From: Odontocerum albicorne
Lineage: Eukaryota; Arthropoda; Insecta; Trichoptera; Odontoceridae
DNA length: 64,000 bases
Direction of reading: 5' to 3'
Assembly (NCBI GenBank): GCA_949825065.1
Contig: OX463849.1
Span: forward strand, 39,771,852-39,835,851
A model generated the notes under the pieces. The model ran no database searches. It was not told where the DNA came from and saw nothing but the letters and a program-made list of their open reading frames with translations. This document shows, piece after piece, positions 55,759 through 56,333 of the stretch (positions are counted from its first letter, which is position 1; each line of letters begins with the position of its first letter). Position numbers and translations under genes: made by a program.

Positions 55759-55991
55759 AAAATGCTCGCAAATCCGGTACCCGTGTCCTCGTCCATTGCC
55801 AAGCTGGAGTTTCTCGCAGTGCTACAATAGCTATAGCCTACCTCATGCGCTACAGGCACATGTCCATGGTGGAAGCGTACAAGATGGTCAAGTTAGCGCG
55901 TCCCATAATTTCACCTAACCTCAACTTCATGGGACAGCTCGTAGAATTGGAGCAGGCCCTTCGCGCCGGCAGTGGTGCTGGCCCTTCCTGA
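55759..55991 (+). CDS. puc: Last exon of DUSP10/puckered-type phosphatase (catalytic P-loop to stop)
   Basis: The acceptor TTCTTCCACAG precedes 55759. The split codon G+AA restores FIENARKSGTRVLVHCQAG. The motif HCQAGVSRS is the HCxxGxxR phosphatase loop, with the nucleophilic Cys at 55797-55799 and the phosphate-binding Arg at 55815-55817. The following AYLMRY and RPIISPNLNFMGQL...ELE motifs are typical of DUSP10 and puckered. The stop TGA is at 55989-55991, shortly after LEQALRAGSGAGPS, which is where the catalytic domain normally ends. The ATG at 55710 lies in the intron and is not a start. The open frame continues after the stop; see the next entry. Confidence 0.94.
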
Positions 55992-56333
55992 GAAGCGCCC
56001 CTGGCCCCCGGGGGCGCCAGAGTACGCCGCGCCACTCCGCGGGAAGCTAAACGTCCGGCGTTATTCCGCCAGAGTCCAACGAAATACCGCGGACGCCCGG
56101 CGAAATTCCGTAACGTTCCTCCCGTCGACGTGAAACGCCAAGTCTCATCGGATGATTGTCTTTCAAACTCTGAAACTAATGGAAGAACAAACAAGAGAAA
56201 ACGAAGTAAATTAAAGAAATCCCCACGCACTGTTCATAAGAAACATATTTCTGATATCAACAAGAAAAGACGCTCTAATCCCAATGAAAAAAGCGAACGT
56301 CGGTCCGTAAAGGGACGGAAAAGGACATGAAGC
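55992..56333 (+). CDS. puc: In-frame 113-codon extension after the TGA stop, possible readthrough tail
   Basis: Directly after the TGA the same frame is open for 113 codons to a second TGA at 56331-56333. The tail has about 36 Arg/Lys and only 9 Asp/Glu. It contains clusters typical of nuclear localisation signals, such as NKRKRSKLKKSPR, NKKRRSNPNEK and VKGRKR. The sequence becomes strongly AT-rich with stops soon after 56333, so the composition border coincides with the frame's end. Readthrough is known for many insect genes; the UGA here is followed by G, not the favoured C. Alternatives are a lineage-specific nonsense mutation, a sequence error, or an ordinary 3' UTR open by chance. Confidence 0.5.
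55995..56017 (+). promoter_or_regulatory. GC-rich RNA hairpin just after the stop codon
   Basis: GCGCCCC (55995-56001) pairs perfectly with GGGGCGC (56011-56017) around a 9-base loop, with CCCCCGGGGG offering an alternative pairing. It begins three bases after the TGA. Stem-loops 3' of a stop can promote readthrough. Pairing is seen in the sequence; function is inferred. Confidence 0.55.

Follow-up and report, generated by a model that had tools for sequence, protein, structure and literature searches.

A candidate stop-codon readthrough extension with a basic tail in a caddisfly puckered/DUSP10-type phosphatase gene

In the caddisfly Odontocerum albicorne, the coding sequence of a puckered/DUSP10-type dual-specificity phosphatase gene closes with a TGA, beyond which the same frame runs on for 112 sense codons rich in Lys and Arg. 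Stop codon readthrough, yielding a minor isoform with a basic tail, is put forward tentatively, at a confidence somewhat short of even. It fits the position of the stop, which is shared with another caddisfly, the exon-like composition past that stop, the break in composition at the second TGA and the open Lys/Arg-rich frame itself. We lean towards readthrough slightly over the reading of the tail as untranslated 3' sequence, and the result is near even. The window referred to below is the whole 64,000-nt stretch of DNA that was analysed.

The phosphatase gene

The coding parts located in the window, together with a possible signal for the end of the transcript, are as follows.

12461..12613, + strand: coding exon of the puckered/DUSP10 gene, upstream of exon A (tblastn, query residues 179-234 of Arctopsyche P0001, E 5e-11)
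15378..15611, + strand: exon A, first half of the DSP domain (tblastn, 87% against P0001 residues 234-311)
55759..55991, + strand: exon B, second half of the DSP domain, ending GAGPS-TGA (tblastn, 85% against P0001 residues 308-387)
56540..56545, + strand: possible poly(A) signal ATTAAA (pattern scan)

The earlier note had named a puckered/DUSP10-type phosphatase, and this identity is borne out: exons A and B, when joined, encode a DSPc domain (PF00782, E 6.6e-41), exon B carries HCQAGVSR, of the form HCxxxxxR, within the signature HCQAGVSRSAT, and DUSP10 chains are the top solved-structure relatives of the joined exons. The closest relative, P0001 (88% identity), comes from another caddisfly, Arctopsyche grandis, and was the best of 1272 protein matches and also of 932 in a second search. 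The upstream exon, whose coordinates and splice ends are approximate, matches the part of P0001 that directly precedes its phosphatase domain. The acceptor of exon A at 15378 scores 8.8, against 5.7 for the alternative at 15384, and its donor reads TCG/GTGAGT; the acceptor of exon B reads TTTTTTCTTCCACAG. PF00581 is present in P0001, and a search of the 29.7 kb that precede the window gave no convincing match to the rhodanese-like kinase-binding region, the N-terminal part being represented by exon 12461-12613 only. Further copies of AATAAA lie at 56797, 56831, 56977 and 57040, and one ATTAAA falls within the tail, at 56210 (pattern scan).

Between exons A and B stretches an intron of about 40 kb, which contains a tandem repeat at 40858-41732 (178-bp unit, 4.9 copies, 98% matches) and a TA-type microsatellite of about 750 bp at 18913-19663.

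The first stop and its age

55989..55991, + strand: first stop, TGA followed by GAA (sequence)

The TGA closes the phosphatase exon with the same frame open beyond it, as had been claimed. P0001 ends LVELEQTLRDGGAGPS and the window exon ends LVELEQALRAGSGAGPS, and by tblastn the two terminate on the identical residue. Because the Arctopsyche protein ends at the same place (...GAGPS), the stop looks old and does not look like a recent nonsense mutation, a comparison that involves one relative at the protein level. The shared end likewise makes it unlikely that the stop stems from an error of sequencing, from a recent nonsense change or from a non-TGA allele. Both caddisflies end in GAGPS, as against the GCSV ending of 43 of the 120 proteins listed (CSV in 47); among these 120, GPS is found in P0001 only. 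No Lepidoptera were named among the 120 matches listed in each of the two protein searches. Arctopsyche grandis is placed under Annulipalpia in the excerpted text of PMC12576367, and the window species would belong to Integripalpia, so that the first stop probably predates the split of the two caddisfly suborders. Selenocysteine incorporation at the TGA was considered and tentatively set aside, no Rfam family scoring above threshold anywhere in the window.

The open frame: size and chance

55992..56330, + strand: in-frame extension with 112 sense codons and 32% Lys+Arg, up to and including the TGA at 56328-56330

The earlier note had described 113 stop-free codons ending at 56333. The frame is indeed open, but it holds 112 sense codons (55992-56327) and its second TGA, at 56328-56330, ends three bases earlier. 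The estimate of about 32% Arg/Lys was accurate (36 of 112 residues).

The strongest alternative, which we regard as quite possible though a little less probable than readthrough, is that termination at the TGA is ordinary and efficient and the tail is untranslated 3' sequence; the frame would then lack stops because the region is G+C-rich and then A-rich and T-poor, with Lys and Arg following largely from composition. Openness is uncommon at the local composition, with a probability of 0.011-0.012 in Markov sequences, 0.006-0.010 in local shuffles and 0.004 when the bases of the two halves are shuffled. A chance of about 0.01 can nevertheless be counted in favour of untranslated sequence, as can the fact that long stop-to-stop frames are not rare in the genome: at least 112 sense codons follow 46 of the 21354 stops in 17 fetched loci, a background that includes transposons and real genes (e.g. 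L019) and three loci just upstream of the window. In the window itself, with known genes and repeats masked, the count is 5 of 6739 stops. The antisense frame across the tail region is likewise open, for 127 codons, which also favours untranslated sequence.

The Lys/Arg content is harder to reconcile with an untranslated region, since it exceeds what composition gives. Frame 0 encodes 36 such residues, frames 1 and 2 encode 22 and 21, and Markov sequences lead one to expect 26.5 (sd 4.6, P 0.03), local shuffles giving P 5e-5 to 2e-4. No open frame of at least 60 codons reaches a Lys+Arg share of at least 0.32, either among 138 in the masked window or among 510 in the 17 loci. Once openness is granted, the excess has P 0.05-0.07 in Markov sequences, and it is reached by none of the 194 and none of the 118 open local shuffles. 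The product of openness (about 0.012) and the excess given openness (about 0.05) puts the joint chance at about 6e-4.

Base composition around the two stops

56334..56334, no strand: composition change point to T-rich 3' sequence (wide 2-unit interval, 56151-56343)

According to change-point analysis the first TGA marks no break. G+C stays exon-like to about 56164, an A-rich, T-poor stretch follows up to 56333, and the sequence is T-rich afterwards. The best change point lies 4 nt past the second TGA, within its wide interval; this agrees with the earlier remark that AT-rich sequence resumes only after that codon, and the near-coincidence tells against an untranslated tail.

The G+C content is 0.65 before the first stop and 0.66 in the next 150 nt. 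For comparison, the stops that end kinase exons in the same genome were tabulated at 29 loci, of which 12 were dropped for a donor score of at least 6 before the stop and 17 kept as probable gene ends (L048 looks intronic); the sequence fetched for L029, L031 and L035 contained no stop, and L056 was left out. Over the 150 nt after the 17 kept stops, G+C ranges from 0.19 to 0.51, so that none reaches 0.66, and the second frame in frame 0 spans 2-51 codons, against 112 at puckered; frame 1 offers 63 codons at one of them. The dropped loci have maxima of 0.53 in G+C, the highest value of all 29, and of 100 codons. This contrast in post-stop G+C and frame length is the strongest single-genome argument against an ordinary 3' UTR.

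Among the kept controls, L022 (stop at base 924, reverse complement) comes nearest to puckered. It is a kinase gene, which from its C-terminus we take to be PKA-catalytic-like, and it ends TGA-G with a 51-codon second frame and a G+C of 0.51.

Coding signal and nuclear targeting in the tail

Tests of coding signal favour untranslated sequence. Taken as a whole, the tail lacks base periodicity (chi2 6.5, where the null mean is 5.8; the phosphatase exons give 22.2), with a hint of it in the A-rich half alone (chi2 11.1, P 0.07, or 0.15 among open shuffles). A logistic classifier of Z-curve type with three feature sets (cross-validated AUC 0.99) was trained to separate 113 coding windows, taken from puckered and 20 kinase exons, from 916 windows that were non-coding or out of frame, the L019 genes being left out. 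Frame 0 of the tail receives no positive coding score, and frame 1 ranks higher in all three feature sets. In two sets frame 0 falls under all 113 coding windows, and in the third under 92% of them.

Recoding of the peptide indicates where the low score arises. With the full feature set the tail scores -1.77, against -0.63 (sd 0.61, 2.7% of draws as low) for its peptide recoded by the codon usage of the genome and -1.05 (sd 0.57, 10% as low) for codons drawn at local composition. With the composition-corrected set the tail scores -4.45, and the two recodings -1.78 (sd 1.13, 0.7% as low) and -4.04 (33% as low), respectively. The low score is thus partly due to the peptide, which scores low even with genome codon usage, and the codons of the tail resemble local composition rather than the genome's usual coding choice. 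A basic peptide can score well: histone H1 of the same genome, a single control gene that is probably highly expressed, has 33% Lys+Arg in its last window and obtains strongly coding frame-0 scores with each of the three sets. A synonymous-codon likelihood was uninformative, the training coding sequence itself having scored no better. In the excerpted text of PMC5100048, the scores of genuine readthrough regions are intermediate between those of coding and of non-coding sequence, and the poor classifier score therefore weakens the readthrough case without closing it.

The linker histone search gave seven equal-scoring matches, at L040-L043 (C17:44.82-44.86 Mb) and on contigs C379 and C810. The four along C17 are spaced in a way that suggests a histone repeat array.

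The several NLS-like clusters that had been pointed out are present, as three monopartite K-K/R-x-K/R matches, but they do not exceed what composition provides (1.5 expected, P 0.18), and the two bipartite matches compare with 1.8 expected. That the motif count is as expected again suits an untranslated tail. According to the available portion of PMC3840789, NLSs in fly extensions moved a reporter to the nucleus in three of four cases tested, and for this reason an NLS function of the tail is possible, although it gains no support beyond composition.

The hairpin and the context of the stop

55995..56017, + strand: G+C hairpin, 10-bp stem with a 3-nt CCC loop (predicted, -21.5 kcal/mol)

The earlier note had placed a 7-bp GC stem here, three bases past the stop; its position stands, while the predicted stem comprises 10 bp. 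Against shuffles the structure has z -3.25 for 31 nt picked by hand, and z -1.9 for the first 60 nt (8 of 200 shuffles). Counting from the T of TGA the stem starts at +7, and the ribosome entry channel spans +5 to +9 in the excerpted PMC13170385, so that the predicted stem sits partly inside the channel. Loss of its first three pairs would leave seven from +10, where the dfr element starts. The same excerpt reports that stem-loops promote readthrough in fly cells, and that 1012 fly genes satisfy the stem-loop rule, of which 50 also have readthrough evidence; with only 50 of 1012 so supported, the hairpin is weak evidence.

The bases at the stop read TGA-GAA, as noted earlier, with G next to the stop and not the leaky TGA-C context; this favours ordinary termination. 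C is favoured after TGA in flies and mosquitoes (PMC5100048, in the part available), and UGA accounts for only 25% of events in fly footprint data (PMC3840789, likewise in part), so that the TGA itself is no strong pointer to readthrough.

Other routes to the tail

An improbable explanation is that the tail is coding by way of an alternative transcript, in which splicing either bypasses the TGA or connects an undetected upstream exon with an acceptor that lies in the tail. A moderate acceptor, CCGCCAG before 56073 (score 4.8), does lead into frame 0, and composition differs before and after 56165. Exon B donors able to excise the TGA without a frame change are, however, weak (best 2.6, to be paired with the 4.8 acceptor) when set beside the donor of exon A at 8.7 and the acceptor of exon B at 12.7, all scores being taken from approximate matrices. 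A join of exon A to 56073 would break frame 0, because exon A leaves one base over and 56073 is the start of a codon. The scan found no splice escape with good sites, and P0001, from the other caddisfly, goes no further than the stop.

It is very improbable that the tail is a relic of a longer, fly-like ancestral C-terminus (block RFKRNSPAKLRLNL), kept as such or by low-level readthrough: AKRPALFRQSPTKYR in the tail resembles the fly ASRPARFKRNSPAKLR, and, matched to a profile built from 19 fly sequences, only 9 of 1000 shuffles of the tail equal its score, but the resemblance was noticed post hoc, the best alignment of whole C-termini (47) is close to the shuffle median of 44, and an unselected relic would hardly remain open, should the stop have the age to which the match with Arctopsyche points. 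As evidence of homology with the fly C-terminus, this is suggestive after the fact only.

The tail was also considered as a repeat or a paralogue and rejected, since DNA and protein searches of the 1.287-Gb genome returned a single match and no second copy, the DNA search being one that skips very common words. Protein database searches revealed no related protein; the tail alone gave nine candidates, none with E of 10 or below. Scans of viral and prokaryotic contigs found no relative of the tail, and the searches recovered no 3' region from a second caddisfly.

Other elements in the window

The minus strand carries an uninterrupted 324-codon frame of mariner/Mos1-type transposase at 61564-62538 (PF01359, PF17906). 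On the plus strand, an 841-codon retroelement-like frame at 1232-3757, which we take to be Pao-like, matches DUF1759 (PF03564) and weakly an aspartyl protease, and it is adjoined by a minisatellite at 878-1253 (26-bp unit, 14.5 copies). A 95-codon plus-strand frame at 40331-40618 matches baculovirus DUF816 weakly and below threshold (E 1.1e-4). Near it is a Cys-rich frame, 39356-39685, without a Pfam match, which presumably resembles the end of a piggyBac transposase.

A proposed pathway and its implications

If readthrough occurs, the main product would be the short JNK-type phosphatase with its GAGPS end. A minority of ribosomes would decode the TGA as sense by means of a near-cognate tRNA, perhaps helped by the hairpin just downstream, and would add a putatively disordered, basic tail of 112 residues up to the second TGA. 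Such a tail could serve in binding to nucleic acid or to acidic partners, or in retaining the phosphatase in the nucleus. How long stress and wound-healing signals last is determined by JNK feedback phosphatases. The fuller proposal, that caddisflies make a readthrough isoform of Puckered whose tail retargets it to the nucleus or to chromatin or RNA, with termination efficiency tuning the shut-off of JNK, is rather unlikely as a whole. Were it true, JNK feedback would be coupled to translation termination in the order Trichoptera. Were the tail untranslated, it would serve as a useful warning that an open, basic, hairpin-led 3' region can convince without codon-level support.

Comparison with known readthrough

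Readthrough in insects with NLS-bearing extensions is already known. The confidence given here to readthrough builds on background rates and on the minimum shares of stops that are read through, 5% in mosquito and 6% in fly (PMC5100048, excerpted text), the share of extensions longer than 112 codons being a guess; in the same excerpt, more than half of mosquito and fly extensions have fewer than 10 codons. A literature search on readthrough and puckered returned papers on tRNA-modifying enzymes and no such report, and one on readthrough and Trichoptera returned a paper on tRNA-Sec and no report of readthrough.

As far as the available text of PMC5100048 and PMC3840789 goes, the Drosophila and Anopheles cases resemble the caddisfly gene in having a TGA, an in-frame extension, a gene with a long intron and predicted structure near the stop. 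They differ in that they rest on codon-level conservation or footprints, whereas the present case is known from the sequence of one genome, and in their preference for C after the stop, where the caddisfly has G and an extension without a positive single-genome coding score. The readthrough element of dfr/vvl, as described in the excerpt of PMC13170385, is a conserved stem from about +10 to +58 after UAG, whereas here a 23-nt hairpin, short of the 35-nt minimum used in that work, begins at +7 after TGA; the two genes are alike in the stable stem-loop that is predicted just 3' of the stop.
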